Shown here in pieces: positions 11,094 through 26,616 of a stretch of DNA of 59,546 nucleotides. The translations under genes and the position numbers were made by a program. Within the stretch, counting starts at the first letter, position 1, and each line of letters starts with the position of its first letter. This stretch comes from Methanobrevibacter millerae (GTDB lineage Archaea; Methanobacteriota; Methanobacteria; Methanobacteriales; Methanobacteriaceae): assembly GCF_900103415.1 (NCBI RefSeq), contig NZ_FMXB01000020.1, positions 1 to 59,546 of the forward strand, given 5' to 3'. Below the pieces are notes generated by a model. That model ran no database searches and was not told the origin of the DNA. It was given only the letters and a program-made list of their open reading frames with translations.

Positions 11094-11163
11094 AGTAATA
11101 CTTTTTAGAGGTTTTTTACCTCATTAGTAATACTTTAATTAATTATATTAATAATAAAAAAAT
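11094..11163 (+). promoter_or_regulatory. Paired AGTAATACT operator and promoter, copy A
   Basis: AGTAATACTTT occurs at 11094-11104 and 11126-11136, exactly 32 bp apart. The core AGTA-A-TACT is a palindrome, and the first site extends to a perfect 15-bp palindrome. Between them lies GAGGT, five T, ACCTC. The 40 bp at 11124-11163, covering the second site and a TATA-like tract, are identical to 19663-19702 upstream of the CobN-like gene. Confidence 0.85.
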
Positions 11164-11221
11164 TAAATTTTATATGGCTATTCTTTATAGCTGGTTTTTT
11201 TCATATATATGGAGGTACATG

Positions 11222-14200
11222 ATGAAATTTAAAAATAAACTTGGGTTTTTGAGTATATTTTTATTTATTTTAATTATATCTTCAGGAATTGTTTTTGCTG
11301 AGGATTCAGCTCTGCCTTCAGTTGAAAACGGAGAGGTTTCTGGTAATGTAGATATTGCCACAGTCAATCCTTTTTCTACTAAAAATACCAGTGCTGAGCT
11401 TGAATATGAAATTCCGGCAAGTGCAAGTGAGATACAATCCGCTTATGTTGTTGTCTCTACCTACTCAGGTAGTGGGAATTATACTTATGGATTAACAACC
11501 AATATTTCTTTAAGGACTGCCAGTACGACAGAAGTATTGGAATATGCGAATTTAACATTCGTAAATGACACCGCAAACGATCCGGTTGTTTATCCTATAA
11601 CCGATCTTACTTCAAAACAATATTCTGATTATCAAAGTTTAATAAATATAACAGATAAGGTAAAAGGATTATCCTCCGGAGATACTGTTACGATTTCAGT
11701 AAACAATACTGAATTGGAAGGATATATCTTTGACGGAAGAATTAAATTAATAGCTTTAGTCTTTGCTTATAATGATAATGATAACGATAAGATATCCTAT
11801 TGGCTGAATATAGGTCAGGCATGGACAAAAGGAACTTTGACTACGGTCTTCAAAACGAAAGATTTTGATGGTGATTATGAGGATGTTGCTCTAGAATCAG
11901 TCTCTCTTTCAAGCACGGATGCTAATTATACATTAAACGGAATTGAATTGTCAGATCCGATTCAGAGAAAAGGCAGCAACTTTATTTATGATAAATGGGA
12001 TGTCACTGACATTTTTGAAATGGGCAATGACACAAGTCTGGCATGTACAAATACCGGAAAGTATTCCTATAAGGCTGTAATTCAGTTATTGACAGTATAT
12101 AATCCAGAAGTACATTATATTGCTGCTGATATTAAGACGGAATATACCAGTACTCCTAGCGTTTATGCCGGCGTCAACAATACATTAACTGTTAAAGTCA
12201 ACAACTATAATAAAAACTTTAACGGAAGTGTAAAATTATATATCGGCGATGAAGAACTCGATTCAGTTGACGTAGCTATCAATGCATACAATTCAACTTC
12301 AATTACTTTAGTTGATCCGACCATCAGGCCGGTTACTGCAAATACCGTTAATGGAAACAATAATGAGAAAGTTAATTATACCGTTGTTATTGAAGATGCT
12401 GACGGATTTGTGCTAAATGAAACTGATGCCAGCATTGTTTTAGTATATGACGGTTACTTAGGAAAAGATTTCGAATATCCTGGTGCTAATCCGCTTGAAA
12501 GGGAATTCTATATTACCGGTGACGTCATAGTTTTAAACACTGAAGATTATAGTGCTGCTGGTGCTACCAGCAGAAATGACACATATAATGTTGATTTGGA
12601 TGGCGGCGTTGTAAATACTGCTTTGTTATATGTTTCATACAACTGGGATAAAATTGTAGGTGATGACTATAATGCATGGAACACTACATTCAACGGTGTT
12701 GCCATTGCTCCTATTGCAACTTACCGTGACCAGTCTAATTTAGGTGGACTTTATGCTAAATACGGCTATGGTTTAGTAGTTTATAACGTAACTGAGTTAG
12801 TCGTTGACGGAAACAATACATTTGCATTGGAAAAGATTTCCGGTAATGCTGCTGTTTATCCAAGCAACTTAATTGTTTTAACCGATAAGAAGGTTAGTGC
12901 TGTTGAGTCTTATGTTTATATCTGGGAAGAAGCTGACTTATTATCCAAATCATATAATAAGTTTGTTCCTGCCGGATTTAACAGTACTTTTGAAATTGTA
13001 GACGGCAATGCCACTTTATATGTATTCGCTGCAAGCGCTCAGCCAGGTGAAGGTAATATAATCGTTAACAATGAAACCTACACTAACGTTTGGAACGGAA
13101 CTTCCAATTCATTCGATACATTTACTACAGAAGTGGATGCTGAAGATATCAGCGTTTACTTTGAGGCAACCGGCGCAACTATTTTAGGATTACATCAGAT
13201 GGTTGTTGTTGAAAATCCTCGCATTGCAGTAGATAGTGCTTTGAAAACCGAATATACCAGTGTTCCTACAATTTACGCTGGCGTCAACAATACATTGACC
13301 GTAACTGTAACCAACAATGGTGCAGAAATTGAAAATCTCACAGTTTATGTTTTACTTGACGGTGAAGAGTTTGCCAATTACACCATTGATTCATTGGCTG
13401 CAGGTGCCAGTGATGTTAATAATGTTGTTGATTTGACCATCAGGCCAATTACTGCCAATACAGTTAACGGCAATGACAATGAGAAAGTTAATTATATCGT
13501 TGGTATTAGGGGCGCTGACGGCAAAATAATTGATCTTGCTAATTATAGCTTTGTTGTTGTATATGACGGTTACTTAGGTAAAGATTTCGAATATCCTAAT
13601 GCAGAACCTTTATTAAGGGAATTCTTCATTACAGGTGACGTTATTGTTTTAAATACTAAAGATTACAGTGCAGGTGGTGCTACAAACAGAACTGATGTTT
13701 ATGAAATTGATTTAAATGACGGTATTGTTAATACTGCTTTATTATACGTTTCATACAACTGGGATAAGGTTTTAGACGATGATTATAATTCATGGAACAC
13801 TACATTCAACGGTGTTGCTATCGTTCCTATTGCTTCTTACCGTGACCAGTCTAATTTAGGTGGAGCTTCTGCTAAATACGGCTACGGTTTAGTTGTTTAT
13901 GATGTTACTGAGTTAGTCGTTGACGGAAACAATACATTTGCATTGGAAAAGATTTCCGGCATGTCTGCTGTCTATCCAAGCAACTTAATCGTATTGACCG
14001 ATAAGGATGCTAGCGCTGTTGAATCTACTGTTTATATTTGGGAAGAAGCTGATTTGTTATCTAAATCATATAATAAGTTTGTTCCTGCTGGTTTCAACTC
14101 CAATTTCACTGTGATTGACGGTAATGCTACTCTGTTTGTATTTGCTGCAAGCGCTCAAGCAGGTGAAGGTAACATAATCGTTAACAACGAAACTTATGAA

Positions 14201-16474
14201 AACGTCTGGAGCGGATCAAGCTATTCATTCGATATTTTCTCAACCGATGTTAACGGAACTGATATCAGTGTTTACTTTGAGGCAACCGGTTCAACCATTT
14301 TAGGCTTGCACCAGATGGTTGTTGTTGAAAATCCTCGCATTGCAATGTCTAGCGATATGAAATCCGAATATACCAGTGTTCCTAGCGTTTACGCAGGCGT
14401 TAACAATACATTTGCTTTAACCGTTAACAATGACGGCGCAGATGTTGAAAATGTTACAGTTTATGTTTTAGAAGGTCAAAATCTGGTTGGTAATTTCACA
14501 ATTGATTCAATGCTTTCAGGAGATAAGGAAGTCTTTACAGTTGTAGATCCTACAATCTGGCCAATCACTGAAAATACCGTTAACGGAAATGACAATGAGA
14601 TAGCTAATTATACCGTTGTCATTATGGACGCCGACGGCAATATAATTGACCTCGCTAATTACAGCTTTGTCGTTGTATACGACGGTTACTTAGGAAAAGA
14701 TTTCGAATATCCTAACGCTCTATCATTATTATGGGAAATCACTTTCACTGGTGATGCTATCGTTTTAAACACTGATGCTTACAGTGCAGGTGCCGCTACA
14801 AACAGAACTGATGTATATGAAGTTGATTTGGCTAATGGAACAGTCAATAGAGCTTTATTATACGTTTCATACAACTGGGATAAGGCTTTAGACGGTGACT
14901 ATAAAACCTGGAACGCTACATTCAACGGTGTCGCTATCACTCCTATTGAAGCTTTCCGTGACCAGTCCAATTTAGGTGGAGCTTCCGCTAAATACGGCTA
15001 CGGTTTAGTCGTTTATGACGTATCCGAGTTAGTCGTTGACGGAAACAATACCTTTGCATTCGAGAAAATTAAAGGCAATTCCGCTGTCTATCCAAGCAAC
15101 CTTATCGTATTGACAGACAAAAATAATTCCGCATACAAAACCGCTTACATCATTGAGGAAGCTGACTTGCTGTCCAAATCCTATAACAAGTATGTTCCTG
15201 CCGGTTTCGAAACTTCATTTGAAATCGTTGAAGGAAATGCAACATTATACGTATTTGCCGCAAGCGCTCAGGCCGGTGAAGGTAACATTATCGTTAACAA
15301 CGAAACCTATGAAAACGTCTGGAACGGTTCAAGCTATTCATTCGACACCTTCACAGTACCTGTTAACGGAACCGACATTAACGTTTACTTCGAAGCAACC
15401 GGCTCAACCATTTTGGGCCTGCATCAAATGATTATCGTTGAACACGAAAACTATTTGGTCATTGAAGCTCCTGATGTAACCAAATACTACAAAGGATCTG
15501 AAAGATTTGTCGTAACCGTAACGGACTGTGTAGGCACACCAGTAGCTAACAAAACAGTAAGCATTACAATCAACGGAGTAACCTACAACAGAACCACTGA
15601 TGAAAAAGGTATCGCAAGCATGGCTTTAGGCTTGAACAGCGGAGAATACAACGTAACCGCAGCTGTTGACAATAATACTGTTGATTCCATCGTTACCATA
15701 TTGCCGACCGTCAACGGTACTGACGTCGTTAAAGTCTTTAGAAACGGAACCCAGTACTATGCAACTTTCCTTGACTCTGAAGGAAACTACCTCAAGGACG
15801 GCACAACCGTTAACTTCAACATCAACGGCGTAATGTATGAACGTAAGGTATCAGGAAATTACGGTATGGCAAGATTAAACATTAATCTGGAACAGGGAAC
15901 CTATATAATCACTGCAATCAACCCGGTAACCGGAGAAAATGCAGCAAACAACATTACAGTACTTCCAAACATCGTTAACAATACAGATCTGGTAAAATAC
16001 TACAGAAACGATTCCCAATACTACGTAACCATTATAGGTGACGACGGCAATCCTGTAGGCGCCAACGAAACGGTCATTTTCAACATTAACGGTGTAATGT
16101 ATGAAAGAACAACCAATGAAAACGGAACGGCCAGATTAAACATTAACTTGCAGCCGGGCGACTATATCATTACTGCAATGTATAATGGATGCAATGTGGC
16201 AAACAACATTACCGTATTGCCTGTATTGTCTGCTGAAGATATTACAATGACCTACAAGGACGGAACCCAATTTAAAGCCAACCTTGTAGACGGTCAGGGC
16301 AAGCCATTAGCTGATACAAATGTTACTTTCAACATCAACGGTGTCTTCTACGATAGAGCCACCGATGCTAACGGTGTGGCCGCATTGAACATCAACCTGA
16401 TGCCTGGAGAATACATTATAACCTCAAGTTATAATGGAACAAATATCGCAAATACAATTAAAATTAACGGATGA
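11222..16474 (+). CDS. Giant DUF3344/Ig-repeat adhesin-like surface protein
   Basis: About 1750 residues. ATG 11222 is preferred because GGAGGT (11211-11216) ends 5 nt before it, and it yields a clean signal peptide (MKFKNKLGFLSIFLFILII, then FAED). An N-terminal DUF3344-like domain is followed by three near-identical blocks of about 370 residues (starting near 12140, 13250 and 14366). Each contains YDGYLGKDFEYP, YVSYNWDK, YPSNLIVLTDK and ATGxTILGLHQM. The last 350 residues hold four Ig-like repeats with the core FNINGVMYERTT and LNINLxPGxYIITA, ending IKING. No C-terminal membrane helix is present, so attachment must be non-covalent or through another protein. The paralog at 16609 has only one central block. 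Confidence 0.93.
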   Translation: MKFKNKLGFLSIFLFILIISSGIVFAEDSALPSVENGEVSGNVDIATVNPFSTKNTSAELEYEIPASASEIQSAYVVVSTYSGSGNYTYGLTTNISLRTASTTEVLEYANLTFVNDTANDPVVYPITDLTSKQYSDYQSLINITDKVKGLSSGDTVTISVNNTELEGYIFDGRIKLIALVFAYNDNDNDKISYWLNIGQAWTKGTLTTVFKTKDFDGDYEDVALESVSLSSTDANYTLNGIELSDPIQRKGSNFIYDKWDVTDIFEMGNDTSLACTNTGKYSYKAVIQLLTVYNPEVHYIAADIKTEYTSTPSVYAGVNNTLTVKVNNYNKNFNGSVKLYIGDEELDSVDVAINAYNSTSITLVDPTIRPVTANTVNGNNNEKVNYTVVIEDADGFVLNETDASIVLVYDGYLGKDFEYPGANPLEREFYITGDVIVLNTEDYSAAGATSRNDTYNVDLDGGVVNTALLYVSYNWDKIVGDDYNAWNTTFNGVAIAPIATYRDQSNLGGLYAKYGYGLVVYNVTELVVDGNNTFALEKISGNAAVYPSNLIVLTDKKVSAVESYVYIWEEADLLSKSYNKFVPAGFNSTFEIVDGNATLYVFAASAQPGEGNIIVNNETYTNVWNGTSNSFDTFTTEVDAEDISVYFEATGATILGLHQMVVVENPRIAVDSALKTEYTSVPTIYAGVNNTLTVTVTNNGAEIENLTVYVLLDGEEFANYTIDSLAAGASDVNNVVDLTIRPITANTVNGNDNEKVNYIVGIRGADGKIIDLANYSFVVVYDGYLGKDFEYPNAEPLLREFFITGDVIVLNTKDYSAGGATNRTDVYEIDLNDGIVNTALLYVSYNWDKVLDDDYNSWNTTFNGVAIVPIASYRDQSNLGGASAKYGYGLVVYDVTELVVDGNNTFALEKISGMSAVYPSNLIVLTDKDASAVESTVYIWEEADLLSKSYNKFVPAGFNSNFTVIDGNATLFVFAASAQAGEGNIIVNNETYENVWSGSSYSFDIFSTDVNGTDISVYFEATGSTILGLHQMVVVENPRIAMSSDMKSEYTSVPSVYAGVNNTFALTVNNDGADVENVTVYVLEGQNLVGNFTIDSMLSGDKEVFTVVDPTIWPITENTVNGNDNEIANYTVVIMDADGNIIDLANYSFVVVYDGYLGKDFEYPNALSLLWEITFTGDAIVLNTDAYSAGAATNRTDVYEVDLANGTVNRALLYVSYNWDKALDGDYKTWNATFNGVAITPIEAFRDQSNLGGASAKYGYGLVVYDVSELVVDGNNTFAFEKIKGNSAVYPSNLIVLTDKNNSAYKTAYIIEEADLLSKSYNKYVPAGFETSFEIVEGNATLYVFAASAQAGEGNIIVNNETYENVWNGSSYSFDTFTVPVNGTDINVYFEATGSTILGLHQMIIVEHENYLVIEAPDVTKYYKGSERFVVTVTDCVGTPVANKTVSITINGVTYNRTTDEKGIASMALGLNSGEYNVTAAVDNNTVDSIVTILPTVNGTDVVKVFRNGTQYYATFLDSEGNYLKDGTTVNFNINGVMYERKVSGNYGMARLNINLEQGTYIITAINPVTGENAANNITVLPNIVNNTDLVKYYRNDSQYYVTIIGDDGNPVGANETVIFNINGVMYERTTNENGTARLNINLQPGDYIITAMYNGCNVANNITVLPVLSAEDITMTYKDGTQFKANLVDGQGKPLADTNVTFNINGVFYDRATDANGVAALNINLMPGEYIITSSYNGTNIANTIKING

Positions 16475-16500
16475 TTAATTTCATCCCATTTTTATTTTTT
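16469..16500 (+). terminator. Hairpin terminator overlapping adhesin stop codon
   Basis: GGATGA (16469-16474, containing the TGA stop) pairs with TCATCC (16481-16486). A T-rich stretch follows at 16490-16500. Confidence 0.6.
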
Positions 16501-16501
16501 T

Positions 16502-16544
16502 AGTAATACTTTTTTTAGCATTTTCACCAATTCAGTAATACTTT
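16502..16544 (+). promoter_or_regulatory. Paired AGTAATACT operator, copy B
   Basis: AGTAATACTTT at 16502-16512 and 16534-16544, with the same 32-bp spacing as copies A and C. The intervening TTTTCACCAATT resembles TTTTCACCTATT in copy C. It lies 65 bp upstream of the second DUF3344 adhesin. Confidence 0.85.
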
Positions 16545-16608
16545 AACTAATTTTAAATATTATCTTCATTAAAGATTTTTAATGTATTAATTTACATTTG
16601 GTGTTAAA

Positions 16609-19608
16609 ATGAATTTTAAAAATATTTTTTTATGTTTTACAGTTCTCTTTTTAATTTCTATAATGTCAGGCACTGTTTTTGCTGATGAAGCGCCTGCCAT
16701 GAGTCTGGTTGAAGAGGGAACGGTATCTGGAGATGTAGCAGTACATGCTTCAAATCCATTTCATCCTTCAGGAAGTCTGGAATATACAATTCCCGATGAC
16801 GTAAGTCAGATACGTTCAGCTAATGTGATTGTAAGCTCTTACTCTGGAAGCGGAGCTCCAACGTATGCATTATACTCCAACGTTACTTTGGATACGGGCA
16901 ATGGAGTTGAAGTATTGGGTTATGAGGACTTGCGCTGTGATATTCCTATGGCCAATGATCCTACGGTTTACAGAATCAATGACCATACCACAAAGCAGTT
17001 TTCCGATTATCAGTCAAGCTATAATATCACTGATAAGGTAAAGGACCTCTCTAGTGGCGATACGATTAAGATATCAGTTCAGAATACGAGAAATCCTGAT
17101 TATCAGTTCGACGGCAGAATCAAAATGATATCTCTGGTATTGGCCTATGACGACGGGGACGATGACAAGATAACCTACTGGCTTAATGTCGGACAGTCAT
17201 GGACGCAAACCAGCCGTTCAAACCTGATAAAGACGAAAAATTTCAATGGAGAATATGACGAGGTGACCTTCGAGAATATCGCAACGTCATCCTATTCCGC
17301 ATTGTGCAGAATCAATGGCAAGCTCATATATGACCCTCTTTATGAAAAGCAGGGAAGCTATTTCATTGATGACATATGGGATATTAAAGACAATTTCAAA
17401 GTCGGAATTGACACTAATTTCTCATATAAGGCATCAGAAAGCGGTTTCGGCTCCTTCAAATCTGTTGTTCAGCTGCTGAAGGTAAGCAAATACAACATCA
17501 CTGTAAACGCCACCATAACGCCACAGTACAAGAATACTGTTTATGCGGGTGTCATCAATAATCTGACGGTGGACGTTTCATCAAACAAAAAGATTGATGT
17601 CGTTGTAAAGCTCTATGAGGGTAAAGATGTGCTTTACTCAGAAAACGTCACTTTAAGCAGAGGAAAAACTTTAATGCATTGCATTGACTCTAAAATCAGG
17701 CCGATAACAGAAAATACCGTAAACGGAAACGATAATGAGAAAGTCAATTATACTCTTGTAATCGAAGATGCAAAGGGAAATATTATAAGTGAAACTAATT
17801 CAAGTTTCGTTTTATTGTACAACGGCTATTTCGCAAAAGACCTTGAATATCCAAATGCAAATCCTCTTTTAAGGAAAATCACTGTTGTCGGTGATGTAAT
17901 CGTTTTAAATGGTGATGTTTACAGTGCAGCAGGCACCACCAACAGGACAGATGTCTTTAATCTGGAATTTAACGGAACCGTCAATACCGCTTTGCTTTAT
18001 GTTTCATACAACTGGGATAAAGACGTCAACGGCGACTTCAACACATGGAATGTCACGTTCAATAATGTTTCAATAGCTCCTGTCGCCTCATACCGTGACC
18101 AGTCCAATCTGGGAACATCAGGCAGATACGGATATGGATTGATAGTCTTTAATGTCACAGATCTGGCCGTTTCAGGGGAAAATGTCTTCTCATTCAACAA
18201 GACAGCAAAAATTTGCGCTGTCTATCCGAGCAGCCTTATTGTATTGACTGATAATGATGAAAGCAGCATTAAAACCGTCTACATCTTAGAGGAATCCGAT
18301 TTATTGTATACCAAGTACAATATGGGATTGCCTACCGGTTTCAACACTTTATTTGAAATAACTGACGGAAACGCAACGTTGTACGTATTTGCTGCCGGCG
18401 CACAGTCCGGTGAAGGTAACATTATCGTTAACGGCGAAACCTATGAAAACGTCTGGAACGGAACCACAAATACCTTTGACATGTTCAAAACGGATGTTAA
18501 CGCAACTGATGTGGAAATCTACTTTGAAGCAACCGGAGGAAGCATTTTAGGCCTTCATCAAATGATCGTCGTTGAGTATGAAAATTATCTGAGTGTTGAA
18601 GTTCCTGAAGTCGTAAAATACTTCAAGGGGTCTGAAAGACTTGTTGTTAATGTAAAGGATTACAACGGAAATCCTGTATCAAACAGGACAGTCAACATAA
18701 CATTGAACGGTGTCACATACTCAAGAACGACCGATGAAAACGGAAGTGCAAGTATGGCTTTAGGTTTAAACAGCGGCAAGTATAACGTAACCGCTGATGT
18801 TGATGGATTTAAGACTGAATCAAGCGTTACGATTTTGCCTACAGTCAACGGAACTGACGTTGTAAAGGTATTCAGAAACGCCACCCAGTACTATGCCACA
18901 TTCAGGGACTCCGAAGGCAATTACCTGTCTAACGGCACTGAAGTGACTTTCAACATCAACGGAGTTATGTACAAGCGTTACATTAATGGAAACGAAGGCA
19001 AAGCCAGACTAAACTTAAATCTTGAACAGGGAACCTACGTTATCACCGCAATCAATCCGGTAAATGGTGAAATGGCTGCAAACAACATTACAGTCATTCC
19101 AAGAATCGTCAACAACAACGACTTGGTAAAGTACTACAGAAATGGCTCCCAGTACTATGTAAGCATTTTGGGTGACGACGGTAAACCTGTAGGCGCCAAC
19201 GAAACGGTGACTTTCAACATCAACGGCGTAATGTATGAGAGAAAAACCAACGTGTCAGGCGTTGCAAGGCTCAACATCAACCTGCAGCCTGGAGAATACG
19301 TAATAACCGCAATGTACGGCGGATGCAACGTAGCAAACAACATTACAGTATTGCCTGTATTAACGGCCGAAAACGTTACTATGAGCTACAAGGACGGAAC
19401 CAAATTTAAAGCAACTTTAGTTGATGGTGAGGGAAATCCTTTAGCAAACACAAATGTCACGTTCAACATCAACGGTGTCTTTTATCAAAGAACCACAAAC
19501 GCTACGGGCGTTGCCGCATTGAACATCAATCTGATGCCGGGCGAATACATCATTACCTCAAGCTATAATGATGCAAATATCGCAAACACAATAAAGATCA
19601 ATGGATGA
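16609..19608 (+). CDS. DUF3344/Ig-repeat adhesin-like surface protein (paralog)
   Basis: 999 residues. The signal peptide is MNFKNIFLCFTVLFLISIMS followed by GTVFADE. It has an N-terminal DUF3344-like domain, a single copy of the 370-residue central block (YNGYFAKDLEYP, YVSYNWDK, YPSSLIVLTD, ATGGSILGLHQM) and four C-terminal Ig-like repeats ending IKING, as in the larger paralog. This looks like the unexpanded form of the 11222 gene. GGTGTT lies just before the ATG as a weak ribosome site. It shares the paired operator with its upstream paralog and the downstream CobN-like gene, so the three are probably co-regulated. No C-terminal anchor is seen. Confidence 0.93.
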   Translation: MNFKNIFLCFTVLFLISIMSGTVFADEAPAMSLVEEGTVSGDVAVHASNPFHPSGSLEYTIPDDVSQIRSANVIVSSYSGSGAPTYALYSNVTLDTGNGVEVLGYEDLRCDIPMANDPTVYRINDHTTKQFSDYQSSYNITDKVKDLSSGDTIKISVQNTRNPDYQFDGRIKMISLVLAYDDGDDDKITYWLNVGQSWTQTSRSNLIKTKNFNGEYDEVTFENIATSSYSALCRINGKLIYDPLYEKQGSYFIDDIWDIKDNFKVGIDTNFSYKASESGFGSFKSVVQLLKVSKYNITVNATITPQYKNTVYAGVINNLTVDVSSNKKIDVVVKLYEGKDVLYSENVTLSRGKTLMHCIDSKIRPITENTVNGNDNEKVNYTLVIEDAKGNIISETNSSFVLLYNGYFAKDLEYPNANPLLRKITVVGDVIVLNGDVYSAAGTTNRTDVFNLEFNGTVNTALLYVSYNWDKDVNGDFNTWNVTFNNVSIAPVASYRDQSNLGTSGRYGYGLIVFNVTDLAVSGENVFSFNKTAKICAVYPSSLIVLTDNDESSIKTVYILEESDLLYTKYNMGLPTGFNTLFEITDGNATLYVFAAGAQSGEGNIIVNGETYENVWNGTTNTFDMFKTDVNATDVEIYFEATGGSILGLHQMIVVEYENYLSVEVPEVVKYFKGSERLVVNVKDYNGNPVSNRTVNITLNGVTYSRTTDENGSASMALGLNSGKYNVTADVDGFKTESSVTILPTVNGTDVVKVFRNATQYYATFRDSEGNYLSNGTEVTFNINGVMYKRYINGNEGKARLNLNLEQGTYVITAINPVNGEMAANNITVIPRIVNNNDLVKYYRNGSQYYVSILGDDGKPVGANETVTFNINGVMYERKTNVSGVARLNINLQPGEYVITAMYGGCNVANNITVLPVLTAENVTMSYKDGTKFKATLVDGEGNPLANTNVTFNINGVFYQRTTNATGVAALNINLMPGEYIITSSYNDANIANTIKING

Positions 19609-19632
19609 TTTTTTCATCCATCATTATTTTTT
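19601..19632 (+). terminator. Hairpin terminator overlapping adhesin stop codon
   Basis: ATGGATGA (19601-19608, containing the TGA stop) pairs perfectly with TCATCCAT (19614-19621), a longer version of the hairpin at the end of the upstream paralog. A T-rich tract follows. Confidence 0.7.
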
Positions 19633-19702
19633 AGTAATACTTTTTCCCATATTTTCACCTATTTAGTAATACTTTAATTAATTATATTAATAATAAAAAA
19701 AT
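19633..19702 (+). promoter_or_regulatory. Paired AGTAATACT operator and promoter, copy C
   Basis: AGTAATACTTT at 19633-19643 and 19665-19675, again 32 bp apart. Bases 19663-19702 are identical to 11124-11163. The second site lies 83 bp upstream of the proposed ATT start of the CobN-like gene, almost the same distance as in copy A. Confidence 0.85.
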
Positions 19703-19758
19703 GATATTAATAGTGAAAAGGATTAAACAAAGTTCTTTTCGAAGGGGGTTTTAATATA

Positions 19759-22700
19759 ATTAAGAGTAAATTTGTTGCTTTTAATTTTAAAAATATAGCA
19801 ATATTAATTATTTTAATTGTTTTATTTTTGAGTTGTATTAATGCAACATTTGCTTTGGAAGACAATGGAACTGTTATTGCAGACAGCGTAAGCTCTCAAA
19901 ATCAGGCTTACAACAAGACAATGCTTCTTGTAAGCGATAACAGTGGAACAAACATCCTTGATTCTGCCGCAAATGAAGTGCTAAACAATTATTCTGACGT
20001 TAACATACAGGTCAGAAGTTCAGCTCAAATCTCCACTATGAAGGAGGAGGAACTTTTCAATCTGGTTGAGAAAAGCGATATCGTACTCATCAACTGGCTT
20101 ACCACCGATGCCGATTCCGTTTTTACAAACCTTTTGATTAAGCATCCTGACCTTTCAAACAAGGAAATGTTTCTTGTACTTGAAAGCTCCTCATCTTCAC
20201 AGCTTAAAACATTTAATCTGGTTAAGAATTCTACTATAAATTATCATAAAATCTTCTCAGACGGAATATTCACTGCAGATTATCTGAATGAATATTTCCA
20301 AACAACAAAAAGAGGCCAATCATTTAATACCGTTAGCGATTATCTGACCAACGGCAACGGAAATAAGGCAAATCCTCTGTTTAACCAGGCGGTCTTATAT
20401 AAAGACTGCAACGATAAGGAAAATGCGATAAACGAGATATTGTGGGCATTGAATGCATGCGGATACAACTGCCAGTATCTTGCCCCTAATTTCCACGAAT
20501 CCTATCAGTACGGCTTATACAGGGACAGATACATGACTCTTGAAGAATACATGAAACTATACTTCAATTCATCAAACGCCTACACCGTAGGTCTACTTGA
20601 AAGTAACATGTATGTATCAAGCGCATCTCTGGAACCTTATTATTCATTGATTAATGCTTTGGAAGCCAAAGGAGTTAACGTCATTCCTGTCGTGGCGGCA
20701 GGAGGGTCAGACGATCAGCTGAAGGTTATGGTTGAGTACTTTACCAATGCTCCTGATTATGAATCATTTTTAGAAAATTCATCAAATTACGAAAGCTATG
20801 TTGATGCGATAATCTCAATGCCTGCATACGGTATTGGGGGAACACTCTTTGATAAGGTCACCGAGTTCTTTGAAACCGCAGGCGTTCCGGTATTCAGGGC
20901 AGTGCACTCCGATTACGTAAGCAATGAGGAATGGGAGTTAAGCACTACCGGACTTCCGGGCAACAGAAGTGACAAATGGTGGCACGTAGCTATCGGCGAA
21001 GCGCAGGGCATCATAGAGGCTACCTTCGTAGGCGGAGTTACCAATGAGATATCCGCCACTACAGGCGCCAAATTAACCGGATACAAGTCTCACGAGACCA
21101 ACATTGACTTGTTTACCGACAGAATCATTTCCTGGATTGATTTGCAGTATGAGGAAAATCAAAACAAGAAGATTTCTCTTCTCTATTACAACTATCCTCC
21201 GGGAAAGCAGAACATCGGTTCAAGCTATTTGGACTCAATGACCAGTATCTACAACCTTTTGCAGACATTAAAGGCGGAAGGCTATGATGTCGGCCAGTTG
21301 CCGGATAACGTAAGCCAGCTGGAAGACATGATTATCAAGTCAGGTATTAACGTAGCTACATGGGCTCCGGGTGAACTGGAAAAGCTGGCAAACAGATCCA
21401 ATGTGGTTCTTCTTCCTGTCAGCGAATATGTGGAATGGTTTGAAAGTCTCGAACCGATTTCCAAACTCCAGGTAACCGAAGGGCCTGTTGCATACATTGG
21501 CGAGCTTTCAAGAAACGCAATAGCCATTGATTATACCGATCCGATGGATGAGAGACTCACCGACTGGTACGGTGAAATCATAGCGCTCTTGCCTGACAAC
21601 TACACTTCAAGGGCAATTCCTATTTTGGATAACATTGTTTCAGCCCTCAGAAAGTATCTCTCAACGGGCCTGGAATCCGACTATGAGATATTTTTAAAAT
21701 ACAAGCAGGAATGGGCTGATTTGGACGTGCCTGGTTTGAACGGATGGGGAGAGGCTCCCGGAAACATAATGACCGTTTGGAGAAACGGAACTCAATACTT
21801 CGTTATTCCCGGTCTTACTTTCGGAAACGTCTTCGTTGCCCCTGAACCTCAAAGGGGATGGGAAGCCGATTCAGATGCACTCTATCACAGCACTGCAGTC
21901 GCTCCGACCCATCAGTATCTTGCGGCATTCTACTATTTCCAGGAATACTATTCATCAGCAATGGTATTTGTCGGAAGGCACGCAACCCACGAATGGCTGC
22001 CTGGAAAGGAAGTTCTGTTGTCAACGACTGATTACGGTTCCATTATGGTTGGAGACGTACCTCAAATCTATTTCTACATCTCTGACGGTTTAGGTGAAGG
22101 TATTCAGGCAAAAAGAAGAGGTTTTGCAGTAATGATTTCTCATCTGACTTCCCCTCTTGCCTACACTCAGCTTTACGGAAACTTAACCGTCCTTGCCGGT
22201 CTGGTTAACGAGTATGAAAACGCAATGGATCAAAGCGCAAAGGACGCACTCCTGTCCGAAATCAGATACATTGTCGATACCAACAACTATGTTGGCTCAA
22301 TGGGCATAAGCAATGAAACATTCAACGGCTATACTGCCGACGAGTTAGTTTCCGCAGTCGACTCTTTCATCAAATCAGTTCAAAATGAGATATACACGTG
22401 GGGTCTGCACGCTCTGGGACAAAACTGGACGGATAAGGATATAGGCCTTTCCGTTTCGACGGCATTGTCACAGCAGTTCACCTATAATGGAGTCACAACC
22501 TCATTGTATGATGAAATAGCTAAAATCAAATACTCCAAAAACTACAATGAGCTCAATTCCCTTGAAAGAGGCGTAGTGATGAATTATTCAGCAGATGTCG
22601 TAATAGCATTAATCTATTATTCAAGCGAGGAAGTGTGCCAGGTGATTGGCGTTAATTCAACTTCACTGCTTGCGGCATTCGATTATGCGAAATTGTACAT

Positions 22701-24768
22701 TTCCCTAATCAAGCTGTCTGTTCAAAAGGAAATCGATTCATTCATTGATGCTTTAAACGGAAAATACATTGCTCCAGGTCCTGCAGGAGACGTGCTTGAC
22801 ATCAATTCACTTCCTACAGGAGGCAATTTCTTCCACGACCAGTCCCAGGAACTTCCAACAGAAGAGGCTTTCAAATACGGAAGGACACTAACATTACTGG
22901 CGTTAGAAGGCCTGACGGACGACACCGAAAAGCTTGTAATGGGAATCTGGTGTGTTGAAACCGCAAGAGATGACGGAGCATTAATTTCAGTTGTATTATA
23001 CTTATTGGGAATGGAACCTGTATACTCCTCCTCACCTAGTGCCGGGGGATACGTGCAGGTAGGAAATGATGAAGACCGTGACGACCATGAGCATGACGAG
23101 GAAGTTGCAGTAGGTGTTAAAACCAACATCATGCCTTCTTATGTTAAATTAAATGATTTGGTCCGTCCTGACGGCTGGGAAAAGAAAAGGATTGACGTTA
23201 CCGTAATCACGAGCGGTAACTTCAGGGACTTGTATTCCACCCAGGCAATGCTTATGGATAACGCATTCAGGATTTCCCTGGCCAGGTCATACATGTACAT
23301 CCTGGACAATGATGATTTGATGTCTGGCCCTTGGGGAAAGGACATTCAGGAAGGTCTCGATGAGGTAATGGCCTCAATCAACTACTACGGCGTCGGCGGC
23401 GAATCATTTGAGGAAAACAGTGTCGCAAAACACTGGGTAAGCGACTTCATATACTACAAGGAACTGGGCTATGATACCACTCATGCGGCCGAATACGCAA
23501 TAACCCGTATCTTTGCGCCTCCGAACGGTGATTACGGTGCAGGAATTGCAAAGTCTGTTTCCATGAGCTGGACCTGGAACGATACCGACGAGCTGTCCGA
23601 GTTCTATCTGGGCAGGATGGGTAACATGTACTCCAAGTTCTACTGGGGCGAAACCAATCCTCTGGTATTTGCAAGGGCTTTAAACAACACAAATGATTTG
23701 ATTGTAAGCCGTAACACCAACGTTTACGGTGTTCTGGACAACGATGATTTCTTCGATTACTGGGGCGGACTTTCAATGACGATGGCTTTCGTTAACGGAA
23801 ACACTCCGAAAATGAACGTATTGATGTATGGAAACAGGAACACTCCATATACTACGTCAATCGAACAGGCCATTTCAAAGGAAATCCTTACCAGATATTC
23901 CAATCCTGACTGGATTAGCGGAATGATGCAGGAAGGATACAGCGGTGCCAGATACATTTCAAACAAGTTCCTCACGGACTTGCTCGGATGGTCAGTGACA
24001 AGGCCTGAAGCCGTTTCAAACTACATGTGGGATGACGCATACGATGTCTATTTCAATGACAAGTACGGCATCGGCGTTACCGACTGGCTTAAAACGGGAA
24101 ACAACAACTATGCGTTCATTTCCTCAGCAGGTACATTACTCACAGCAGCTTATGAAGGCTACTGGAAAACCGATTCTGCAACATTATCCAGCCTTGCCAA
24201 CCAGTGGGCTCAGGCAGTAATTGCAAACGGAGTGGCCTGCTGTGACTGCAGTTGCGGTAACATTGCTATGATGCAGTGGGCGGTTGACTTTATCAATCCG
24301 GATCTGCTTGCCAAGTTCGCAGACCAGATTTTCCAGGCAACGAATCACAATTTTTTCAATCCTGCCAATTTCCAGAACAATCCTAATGCCGATGAGGCGG
24401 ACAGTAATATGGATGACAATACAGGCGTTAATACCAACAACGGTGACGTCCTGTCAAATTCAACTTCATCAACCTTAAAGTCAGACAGCGCAACATCCGG
24501 ATTTACCGGCAAGACTGCTGTCGGTGTTGGAGATTCCTCTTCACAGCCTGCTACAGCTTCAAGCTCATCTGAAATCTATGACTCAGAAAATGTGGGTGAA
24601 ACCGGTGGAGACTCAGCATCCAAAAGCTATGAGGTTGAAAAGTCCGTTTCAAGTAGCAGTACGACAACCGAGAAATCAATGTCAATACAGCTGATAATAT
24701 GTGTAATAATTTTAGTGGGAATTTTTGCTATAGGCTACTTTAGAAATAAACAAAAAGATGATTTTTGA
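19759..24768 (+). CDS. cobN: Exported, membrane-anchored CobN-like (cobaltochelatase/Mg-chelatase H family) protein
   Basis: About 1669 residues, somewhat longer than a typical CobN. The core has RHATHEWLPGKEVLLS, the HxxxEWLPGK-type signature of the CobN/ChlH family. The protein is clearly exported: an N-terminal Lys-rich stretch and helix (IAILIILIVLFLSC, then NATFALED), many NxT/S sequons, a Ser/Thr-rich linker near the end, and a C-terminal helix (LIICVIILVGIFAIGYF) with basic tail. An acidic/His loop (DEDRDDHEHDEE) and a CCDCSC cluster could bind metal. The first conventional start, TTG 19828, would cut off the signal peptide and has no ribosome site. AAGGGGGT (19742-19749) precedes in-frame ATA 19756 and ATT 19759, so a non-AUG start is likely. 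The chelatase substrate is unknown. Confidence 0.88.
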   Translation: MKSKFVAFNFKNIAILIILIVLFLSCINATFALEDNGTVIADSVSSQNQAYNKTMLLVSDNSGTNILDSAANEVLNNYSDVNIQVRSSAQISTMKEEELFNLVEKSDIVLINWLTTDADSVFTNLLIKHPDLSNKEMFLVLESSSSSQLKTFNLVKNSTINYHKIFSDGIFTADYLNEYFQTTKRGQSFNTVSDYLTNGNGNKANPLFNQAVLYKDCNDKENAINEILWALNACGYNCQYLAPNFHESYQYGLYRDRYMTLEEYMKLYFNSSNAYTVGLLESNMYVSSASLEPYYSLINALEAKGVNVIPVVAAGGSDDQLKVMVEYFTNAPDYESFLENSSNYESYVDAIISMPAYGIGGTLFDKVTEFFETAGVPVFRAVHSDYVSNEEWELSTTGLPGNRSDKWWHVAIGEAQGIIEATFVGGVTNEISATTGAKLTGYKSHETNIDLFTDRIISWIDLQYEENQNKKISLLYYNYPPGKQNIGSSYLDSMTSIYNLLQTLKAEGYDVGQLPDNVSQLEDMIIKSGINVATWAPGELEKLANRSNVVLLPVSEYVEWFESLEPISKLQVTEGPVAYIGELSRNAIAIDYTDPMDERLTDWYGEIIALLPDNYTSRAIPILDNIVSALRKYLSTGLESDYEIFLKYKQEWADLDVPGLNGWGEAPGNIMTVWRNGTQYFVIPGLTFGNVFVAPEPQRGWEADSDALYHSTAVAPTHQYLAAFYYFQEYYSSAMVFVGRHATHEWLPGKEVLLSTTDYGSIMVGDVPQIYFYISDGLGEGIQAKRRGFAVMISHLTSPLAYTQLYGNLTVLAGLVNEYENAMDQSAKDALLSEIRYIVDTNNYVGSMGISNETFNGYTADELVSAVDSFIKSVQNEIYTWGLHALGQNWTDKDIGLSVSTALSQQFTYNGVTTSLYDEIAKIKYSKNYNELNSLERGVVMNYSADVVIALIYYSSEEVCQVIGVNSTSLLAAFDYAKLYISLIKLSVQKEIDSFIDALNGKYIAPGPAGDVLDINSLPTGGNFFHDQSQELPTEEAFKYGRTLTLLALEGLTDDTEKLVMGIWCVETARDDGALISVVLYLLGMEPVYSSSPSAGGYVQVGNDEDRDDHEHDEEVAVGVKTNIMPSYVKLNDLVRPDGWEKKRIDVTVITSGNFRDLYSTQAMLMDNAFRISLARSYMYILDNDDLMSGPWGKDIQEGLDEVMASINYYGVGGESFEENSVAKHWVSDFIYYKELGYDTTHAAEYAITRIFAPPNGDYGAGIAKSVSMSWTWNDTDELSEFYLGRMGNMYSKFYWGETNPLVFARALNNTNDLIVSRNTNVYGVLDNDDFFDYWGGLSMTMAFVNGNTPKMNVLMYGNRNTPYTTSIEQAISKEILTRYSNPDWISGMMQEGYSGARYISNKFLTDLLGWSVTRPEAVSNYMWDDAYDVYFNDKYGIGVTDWLKTGNNNYAFISSAGTLLTAAYEGYWKTDSATLSSLANQWAQAVIANGVACCDCSCGNIAMMQWAVDFINPDLLAKFADQIFQATNHNFFNPANFQNNPNADEADSNMDDNTGVNTNNGDVLSNSTSSTLKSDSATSGFTGKTAVGVGDSSSQPATASSSSEIYDSENVGETGGDSASKSYEVEKSVSSSSTTTEKSMSIQLIICVIILVGIFAIGYFRNKQKDDF

Positions 24769-24893: not shown

Positions 24894-25604
24894 ATGGATA
24901 TGATGAGTGTTTTATGGCAATTTGGTATCATTGCAGCTATTCTTGTCTTTGGTATTAAAGTGGGTTTAGCTTCAGGACTGGCCAATCTGTCAAAGAAATT
25001 ATTAGCGTTGATCTGTATAGGATATGGTGGTGGAGTACTTATTATTTCCGCTATAGCATCTTTATATGCAGAACAAATCACTCAAGCTATTTATAGTTAT
25101 AATTCTATATTCTATATGATTATGGCCCTTATCATGATTATAGCTGGTCTGATCACTATACGGGAATATAAGGTCCATGATCACAATACGAGTACTGCAA
25201 CGTCGCTGGCGGTAATTGCACCTTGTCCGTGCTGTTTCGGTTCAATCGTTGCAAGTATCTTAATTGTCGCTCCAACCATTGGAGTCGGCGCTTTTTATTT
25301 AAGCTGGTTTGCTGCTGCAACTTTGGTGGCTGTTATTATAATAACATACTTCGCATCAAACATCATAGTCAAGCATATAAGCAAGCCTTATCCGATTATC
25401 CTGGGAAACTTCATGCTTCTTTTAGGTGCTTATTTCCTGCTTTCTGCAATTGTAATTCCTAATATTGCAGGTTCACTAAGCAAGGATTTCGGCAACCTCA
25501 CGATGAGCTCTCCCGAATCCATTATCGCTATCGTTGTTATGCTGGTGATTCTGGTGATAATTGGAGTATTTTTAAATAAGAAAAGTAAACGTCTTTTAGA
25601 ATGA
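24894..25604 (+). CDS. DUF2162-type predicted membrane transporter
   Basis: 236 residues with six or more predicted membrane helices and almost no loops, matching the DUF2162 family found in methanogens. A distinctive APCPCCFGSIVASI segment places a CPCC motif at the start of a membrane helix, a candidate metal or thiol-redox site. It stands between the CobN-like gene and the ExbB/ExbD-like pair, 20 bp before the ExbB gene, so it is probably part of the same functional system. Ribosome site GAGGAA precedes the ATG. The transported substrate is unknown; cobalt, nickel or a corrinoid are guesses from context. Confidence 0.8.
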   Translation: MDMMSVLWQFGIIAAILVFGIKVGLASGLANLSKKLLALICIGYGGGVLIISAIASLYAEQITQAIYSYNSIFYMIMALIMIIAGLITIREYKVHDHNTSTATSLAVIAPCPCCFGSIVASILIVAPTIGVGAFYLSWFAAATLVAVIIITYFASNIIVKHISKPYPIILGNFMLLLGAYFLLSAIVIPNIAGSLSKDFGNLTMSSPESIIAIVVMLVILVIIGVFLNKKSKRLLE

Positions 25605-25624: not shown

Positions 25625-26272
25625 ATGAGTGTAAGTATACCTGGTGGAGAATTTTTAACCGGTTCTTTGGATGTTATTTCACAGAGTCTGACCATTCCTG
25701 TATTGGTTATTCTTTTGATTATTGTGATTATTTCCATAATCTCATTGGGTGGATTAATATCTGAATATACTTCAAGAAAGAAAGTTCCAGTCGGAACTAT
25801 AAGGGATTTGATTTATCAAATCAACTCTGCCGCTTCCGTTGATGCACTTATAGGCATTATCGAAGGTGCGGAAATCCCAAAATCCCAGAAAAAAGTTTTA
25901 ACTGAAATCGCTAGCTCTTCAGCATTGGATGTAAATTCCAGAGAAGCTTTAGCACGTAAATTAGTCGAATATGAAGAAGAAAAAATCGATAATACATTAA
26001 GAAAAACCGATATCATTACAAAAGTGGGTCCTACCTTAGGGTTAATGGGTACTTTAATTCCTATGGGTCCGGGTCTTGCTGCATTAGGCGCAGGTGACGT
26101 AAATACCCTTGCGGAATCATTGACGCTTGCGTTCAACACAACAATTGTAGGTATCGGTTCCGGTGCTTTATGTTATTTCATCGGTAAAATCAGATCCGGC
26201 TGGTATGACCGTTACTTATCCGATTTGGATGCTTTATCTGATGCTGTTTTGGATTACATGAATAAACAGTGA
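25625..26272 (+). CDS. MotA/TolQ/ExbB family proton channel subunit
   Basis: 215 residues. There is one N-terminal membrane helix (around LVILLIIVIISIISLGG), a cytoplasmic domain, and two C-terminal helices containing GPTLGLMGTLIPMGPGL and TLAFNTTIVGIGSGALCY, the signature of ExbB/TolQ/MotA stators. The family converts ion flow into mechanical work on a partner protein. The ExbD-like partner is the next gene, 5 bp downstream. In an archaeon without an outer membrane the target cannot be a TonB receptor; the adjacent exported CobN-like protein is the obvious candidate. Confidence 0.92.
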   Translation: MSVSIPGGEFLTGSLDVISQSLTIPVLVILLIIVIISIISLGGLISEYTSRKKVPVGTIRDLIYQINSAASVDALIGIIEGAEIPKSQKKVLTEIASSSALDVNSREALARKLVEYEEEKIDNTLRKTDIITKVGPTLGLMGTLIPMGPGLAALGAGDVNTLAESLTLAFNTTIVGIGSGALCYFIGKIRSGWYDRYLSDLDALSDAVLDYMNKQ

Positions 26273-26277
26273 TTGTT

Positions 26278-26616
26278 ATGGTTCGAAAAAAACAAAGAAG
26301 ACGATCTAATCGTGTTGAAGAAGACCCTATGGCTGGTACGGCTAACCTTGTGGATGCAATGCTTGTTATTGCAGTTGGTTTTCTTGTCTTTGTAATCATC
26401 AGTTGGAACATGCAATCAATTGTCTTTAATGATGACATGACGCAAGAACAAAAGCAACAGGTTATGGAGACTATCAGCAGTGTTTCTGAAGTTACTCAGG
26501 GTCAGGAACTGAATGAGACTCCAGACACTTCAAACAGCTCAGGTCAGGGTTATACTGAAATGGGTAAGGTTTATAAAGATCCATCGACAGGTAAGCTGAT
26601 TATGGTAGAGGGTTGA
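26278..26616 (+). CDS. DUF2149 protein, ExbD/TolR-like stator subunit
   Basis: 112 residues. A basic N-terminus (VRKKQRRRSN) precedes one membrane helix, GTANLVDAMLVIAVGFLVF, whose Asp26 sits where ExbD, TolR and MotB carry the proton-binding aspartate (compare the IDVMLVLL pattern of ExbD). The rest is a short external domain rich in Gln/Ser, ending VYKDPSTGKLIMVEG, much smaller than a typical ExbD periplasmic domain. The start is ATG 26278: GTGAT overlapping the upstream stop is the ribosome site, and the in-frame GTG 26269 is part of it. This gene ends the operon, with a hairpin overlapping its stop. Confidence 0.85.
   Translation: MVRKKQRRRSNRVEEDPMAGTANLVDAMLVIAVGFLVFVIISWNMQSIVFNDDMTQEQKQQVMETISSVSEVTQGQELNETPDTSNSSGQGYTEMGKVYKDPSTGKLIMVEG

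Follow-up and report, generated by a model that had tools for sequence, protein, structure and literature searches.

Paired GTAWTAC dyads form a regulatory element that is dispersed through the genomes of Methanobacteriaceae and that is probably, judging from its sequence and target genes, a NikR nickel-starvation operator with unusual spacing. The element has the form GTAWTAC-N24/25/26-GTAWTAC, in which the two dyads are 31–33 bp, or about three helical turns, apart. We consider it likely that the pair serves a nickel-starvation regulon as its operator, with the genome's single NikR as the most likely protein to bind it. NikR-type nickel operators are already known, and what is new here is the third helical turn in the operator spacing.

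The paired motif in the window

The window (the whole stretch of DNA that was analysed, 59,546 bases) contains six copies of AGTAATACT versus 0.36 expected, and none of 100 shuffles reaches six. The six copies form three pairs, each exactly 32 bp apart, as a preliminary description of this DNA had reported. The features of this region are:

11094, 11126, 16502, 16534, 19633, 19665 (+): starts of AGTAATACT
11094..11134 (+): operator pair A, two AGTAATACT dyads 32 bp apart, 5' of DUF3344 surface protein 1
11143..11151 (+): TATA-like box TTATATTAA of a presumed promoter, 8 bp 3' of the second dyad of pair A
11174..16474 (+): DUF3344/Ig-like secreted surface protein 1, a 1766-residue ORF with a likely start at ~11220–11223, after GGAGG
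16502..16542 (+): operator pair B, 5' of DUF3344 surface protein 2
16552..16559 (+): presumed TATA-like box TTTAAATA, 9 bp 3' of the second dyad of pair B
16609..19608 (+): DUF3344/Ig-like secreted surface protein 2, 999 residues
19633..19673 (+): operator pair C, 5' of the CobN-like gene
19682..19690 (+): presumed TATA-like box TTATATTAA, 8 bp 3' of the second dyad of pair C
19756..24768 (+): CobN/Mg-chelatase-like protein (PF02514), apparent non-AUG (ATA or ATT) start
24894..25604 (+): DUF2162 predicted membrane transporter (PF09930)
25625..26272 (+): MotA/TolQ/ExbB-like proton channel protein (PF01618)
26278..26616 (+): DUF2149 protein in the ExbD-like position (PF09919)

All three pairs are non-coding and lie upstream of the DUF3344 genes (11174 and 16609) and the CobN-like gene. 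When up to three mismatches are allowed, the paired pattern has eight matches in the window versus 0.5 expected, six of which are the three pairs counted on both strands. The dyad has the structure AGTA-A-TACT, and the copy at 11094 widens to a 15-bp odd palindrome, AAAAGTAATACTTTT; both features had been described correctly. Copies A and C are indeed identical over 40 bp (11124–11163 = 19663–19702), but the identity spans the second dyad and the TATA region and does not cover the whole pair. It could result from a local duplication or from a common promoter. Copying of the element, as had been suggested, need not be invoked because pairs at different genes are alike in little but their two dyads; the spacer between the dyads is AT-rich and poorly conserved. 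The distance from the pair to the TATA-like box seen in the window is also found at CobN-like promoters of other Methanobrevibacter.

The two DUF3344, CobN-like, DUF2162, ExbB-like and DUF2149 genes are consecutive. The CobN-like protein has, as judged by eye, a signal peptide and a C-terminal membrane anchor, and is probably located outside the cell. An extracellular chelatase-type protein would have no access to ATP-driven partners, and we therefore read it as a metal- or tetrapyrrole-binding protein. The ExbB-like pair of proteins possibly energises this surface module, which may be a cell-surface capture and uptake system for nickel or nickel-tetrapyrrole. A strong GGAGG/GGGGG site precedes the apparent translation start of the CobN-like gene (window 19743–19761), which is not AUG but either ATA or ATT. 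The listed TTG start at 19828 is too far downstream, as only translation from the non-AUG codon has the signal peptide in frame. Loci L121, L122 and L127 have the same start region, AATATAATTAAGAG, and L123 and L134 have closely similar versions of it.

Distribution and targets of the pair

The pattern GTAWTAC-N10-40-GTAWTAC gives 17 pairs in the window's genome (G000), 12 of them spaced by 32 or 33 bp, versus 6 pairs for its reversed form. Five genomes together contain 70 exact GTAWTAC pairs spaced 17–49 bp, of which 44 are at 32/33 bp (4.5 expected), 47 at 31–33 bp and 4 at the 20–22 bp of a two-turn NikR site. The earlier proposals of a single regulator and of a spacing that puts both dyads on the same DNA face are supported. 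The central base and the orientation of the dyads are variable, and a T after the C is usual (0.85–0.95).

The 32/33-bp pair is present in 136 of the 150 genomes of the order. It occurs in all 67 genomes of the genus (486 matches versus 15 for the reversed-pattern control) and in 65 of 71 genomes of the rest of the family (273 versus 4), which amounts to 759 matches versus 19 for the two sets combined, and in 4 of 12 genomes of the two other families (4 versus 1). In the latter two, cbiM is preceded by a near-exact 33-bp pair (L172, L174–L176, L178, L179, L182, L183), as is a CobN-like gene in three genomes. With this genome- and family-wide occurrence, the notion of a local element special to the three surface-protein genes was abandoned.

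The genome scan proposed in the preliminary description, extended to relatives, places the pairs in promoters and not in genes. In the window's genome, the 12 pairs are all intergenic, one of them overlapping the stop end of a neighbouring gene by 4 nt. In 33 loci from relatives, most of them picked for motif or DUF2162 matches, there are 44 exact pairs, none inside a gene and 43 adjoining an orthologue of a target in the window's genome; 8 of the 33 loci have no exact pair. There are 46 named DUF2162 loci, nearly all from Methanobrevibacter, and 11 of them have a CobN match. An exact pair is located at the CobN or DUF3344 gene in eight of the 11 (L125 at DUF3344 only), and at neither gene in three (L126, a short contig, L161 and L162). 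The other 35 loci, with a different DUF2162 cluster or too little flank, contain no exact pair, and three of them have a one-mismatch pair 5' of an FmdE-like gene.

The exact-pair targets in the window's genome are the NikA-like SBP5 (nikABC-like) operon, a gene for a NikD-like ATPase divergent from a GNAT gene, cbiM/nikM and a P1B-type ATPase gene (two pairs each), the three window genes and two surface-protein genes, one of which encodes Ig-like domains and is divergent from a SurE-like gene. One pair is found in a long gap near a HisA-like gene, and the hmd–hcgG gap holds a pair with one mismatch. The hmd and hcgG genes serve the nickel-free [Fe]-hydrogenase and its cofactor, and hmd/hcg are classic nickel-limitation genes. 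Orthologous promoters in other genomes (NikA-like SBP5, NikD-like ATPase, CbiM, hmd, hcgG and P1B-ATPase) also carry the pair. Upstream DNA is usable at 11 hmd loci of the genus, and 10 of these have a 31–33 bp pair with at most one mismatch, a count that omits 6 of 17 genus loci with a contig-end cut or a partial gene (L038, L039, L040, L042, L045, L047). Hmd matches in other families are paralogues with 27–30% identity (one at 66%) and so are uninformative for or against.

The targets thus are genes of nickel transport or nickel use, as in NikR-type regulons. The preliminary description had suggested a metal- or corrinoid-responsive regulator. The metal part of this suggestion stands, with nickel indicated by the targets, and corrinoid control was rejected because the pair's companions are nickel importers, hmd/hcg and the P1B-ATPase. 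Joint control of the surface proteins and the CobN-like protein, also suggested there, is supported. By eye, the pair follows the TATA-like box at nikA, lies around it at cbiM and the P-ATPase, and is ~8–10 bp upstream of it at the CobN and DUF3344 promoters. This variable position suits a blocking repressor; the class just before the box would also suit an activator.

Several sites have peculiarities of their own. The P1B-type heavy-metal ATPase, which has a His-rich tail, mostly has two or three pairs around its TATA-like box (L018:5422–5534 = G000:C5; L103, L107, L110, L114, L206). Between the two pairs of the cbiM promoter at L009:5735–5816 (G000:C11) lie additional single dyads that may serve cooperative binding or looping, and L108 and L119 have a similar layout. 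At the HisA-like gene, a conserved pair is located 500–650 bp upstream (L020:5068–5107 = G000:C12:51067; L104, L109, L115). No clear target gene was found for this site in the window's genome and no Rfam family accounts for the long gap, which perhaps encodes a small RNA or peptide. A perfect inverted GTAATACTT-N11-AAGTATTAC with 22-bp spacing (L019:4618–4646, G000:C8:34617), perhaps a related but different operator, lies between a presumed Tfx-like regulator gene and a MobB-like gene, near apparent formylmethanofuran dehydrogenase genes. An exact pair at L204:12482–12520 (G079:C1:427481) is in a phage-like region with no evident nickel gene.

Published proteomics and RNA-seq data from relatives agree, by analogy, with nickel control of common targets. 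Genome G079, presumably the M. ruminantium strain of the lauric-acid data, has the pair at its hmd, cbiM and nikA promoters. Upon addition of lauric acid, hmd, the adjacent 'bioB2' (a radical-SAM protein in G079), cbiM1/N1, nikA2/B2/C2/D2 and a GNAT gene rise together in M. ruminantium (PMC5816558). The P-ATPase of G079 also has pairs, and its gene could not be recognised among the published genes, a list that omits hypothetical proteins. Lauric acid is not nickel limitation, so these data show co-regulation and not the signal. The G079 cluster with ExbB and the DUF2162 position has no site within one mismatch, though its genes rose with lauric acid. For lack of such a site, we do not claim that nickel induces the CobN cluster of M. 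ruminantium. A link to the P-type ATPase mru_1861, down by 6.6 log2 units with lauric acid, was also dropped: the candidate (L216) has no pair, and the pair-bearing P-ATPase is elsewhere (L206). The P-ATPase-like gene of L216, near the estimated place of mru_1861, adjoins a gene that is CsoR-like by eye.

In M. marburgensis, nickel limitation is reported to be the only condition with abundant CobN1 and NikR1; a transporter and an ABC transporter are then up as well (PMC12350162), and hmd transcription also rises (PMC3087415). The locus number of the up-regulated transporter is adjacent to those of CobN-like genes, and we take the transporter to be DUF2162.

NikR as the candidate regulator and competing readings

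NikR is a nickel-dependent ribbon-helix-helix repressor, the tetramer of which contains two ribbon-helix-helix dimers. Its gene is single-copy in 35 of 37 genomes of the genus; a NikR match is absent in G005 and G009 (77 and 89% complete), both motif-bearing genomes of the genus. A weak third NikR type was not found among the genus genomes. The NikR of L016 matches PF08753 and PF01402 (1.5e-30 for the nickel domain) and retains the HIHM...C region in an alignment to 2bj1 and H. pylori NikR, i.e. its nickel-binding domain is intact. Its DNA-reading strand, RISMSL, is similar to the RFSVSL of H. pylori NikR. The gene is two away from that of the hydrogenase maturation protease HycI, with a methyltransferase gene alongside. 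Autoregulation of nikR is frequent, not universal, and here a pair with at most one mismatch is found in the upstream 400 bp of 1 of 50 nikR loci. A degenerate pair (two mismatches) precedes one nikR paralogue at five of that paralogue's six loci in family f2, which we take to be Methanothermobacter. In Methanoperedens plasmids, NikR adjoins CbiMNQO and DUF3344 surface proteins (PMC9674854).

We infer NikR as the binder and repression as the sign of control. When nickel is sufficient, a Ni-NikR tetramer would bind both GTAWTAC dyads on one DNA face, three turns apart, possibly with one ribbon-helix-helix dimer on each 9-bp dyad, and would block TBP/TFB or RNA polymerase. When nickel is scarce, NikR would be released and three groups of proteins would be made: the importers NikABC/NikD and CbiM/NikM; Hmd, the nickel-free [Fe]-hydrogenase, together with the enzymes for its cofactor; and the window's surface module (two DUF3344 proteins, exported CobN-like protein, DUF2162, ExbB-like and DUF2149 proteins). 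A simple starvation regulon does not predict the P1B-ATPase, usually an exporter, under the same operator.

The nickel-starvation operator could instead be read by another, undescribed regulator, for example an activator bound as two dimers three turns apart. The three-turn spacing and self-symmetric 9-bp dyads are unlike described NikR operators, nikR autoregulation is not convincing, and the CobN and DUF3344 promoters have the pair directly 5' of the TATA-like box, a position also used by archaeal activators. We nevertheless regard such a regulator as unlikely, given that the half-site core is that reported for H. pylori NikR, that the target set fits NikR regulons as described, nickel-independent hydrogenase included, and that a pair overlapping or following the core promoter, as at nikA, cbiM and the P-ATPase, suits a repressor. 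Even less probable is a response to another metal or several (cobalt, zinc). The names cbiM and CobN recall cobalt, the P1B-ATPase is among the targets, and one Methanothermobacter NikR homologue was suggested to be zinc-responsive (PMC3087415), but hmd/hcg belong to nickel limitation, as does the abundance of M. marburgensis CobN1 (PMC12350162), and the weak third NikR type was not found among the genus genomes. A chance origin, or a repeat that was copied and has no regulatory role, would draw on the AT-richness of intergenic DNA and the 40 bp common to copies A and C; it is scarcely credible in view of the large enrichment over shuffles and reversed patterns, the fixed spacing and the conserved orthologous promoters.

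A broader form of the NikR reading, which we put forward tentatively and at somewhat less than even chances, is that Methanobacteriaceae possess a class of three-turn NikR operators through which the change to the nickel-free hydrogenase Hmd and the display of a DUF3344/CobN-like/ExbB surface machine are switched together as a single response to nickel starvation. At the pseudomurein wall, this machine would capture nickel or nickel-tetrapyrrole, and the role of some gut-methanogen 'adhesins' would be to acquire metal. For methane producers of the gut and rumen, the pair offers a cis-regulatory code of nickel starvation that can be tested. It would connect nickel supply with 'adhesin-like' surface proteins and an exported CobN-like protein, and would place the Hmd switch under the same control. 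Methyl-coenzyme M reductase and the [NiFe]-hydrogenases use nickel as their metal, and the finding therefore bears on methane output. The spacing also raises a structural question for NikR, namely whether its tetramer can span 31–33 bp.

Comparison with known systems

A three-turn NikR operator was not found in the literature consulted, in which described operators are two-turn, i.e. one helical turn shorter. A description of the paired motif was likewise not found in searches of the literature on NikR, methanogens, DUF3344 or the Hmd/nickel regulon; an earlier archaeal prediction is possible in a 2006 J. Bacteriol. NikR-site study, which according to a later paper covered eight methanogens (PMC10617489).

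Methanothermobacter marburgensis likewise raises Hmd, CobN1, NikR1 and transporters at scarce nickel; the cited parts of these reports give no operator (PMC12350162, PMC3087415), and family f2 shows only near-exact pairs, at cbiM and CobN. In E. coli, as here proposed, Ni-NikR represses a nickel ABC importer via an inverted repeat, but that site, GTATGA-N16-TCATAC, is described as controlling the nik operon only (PMC7055735).

The half-site GTAWTAC contains TAWTA and resembles GTATTAC/GTAACAC. The predicted delta-proteobacterial NikR site, GTGTTAC-N13/14-GTAACAC, likewise occurs with its half-sites in either orientation, and the predicted regulon includes the nikMNQO transporter and a nickel-independent [Fe]-only hydrogenase (PMC545781). 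It differs in its N13/14 gap and hydrogenase family, and the cited part of that study names no CobN-like or DUF3344 proteins. The H. pylori site, TRTTA-N15-TAWTA, shares the TAWTA half-site and the placement of two half-sites on one face, and its regulon similarly unites nickel genes with outer-membrane protein genes (PMC5385501). Unlike the H. pylori site, with its 15-nt gap and centres 20 bp (two turns) apart, the pair described here has fully palindromic 9-bp dyads, lies at archaeal core promoters and spans 31–33 bp, or three turns.
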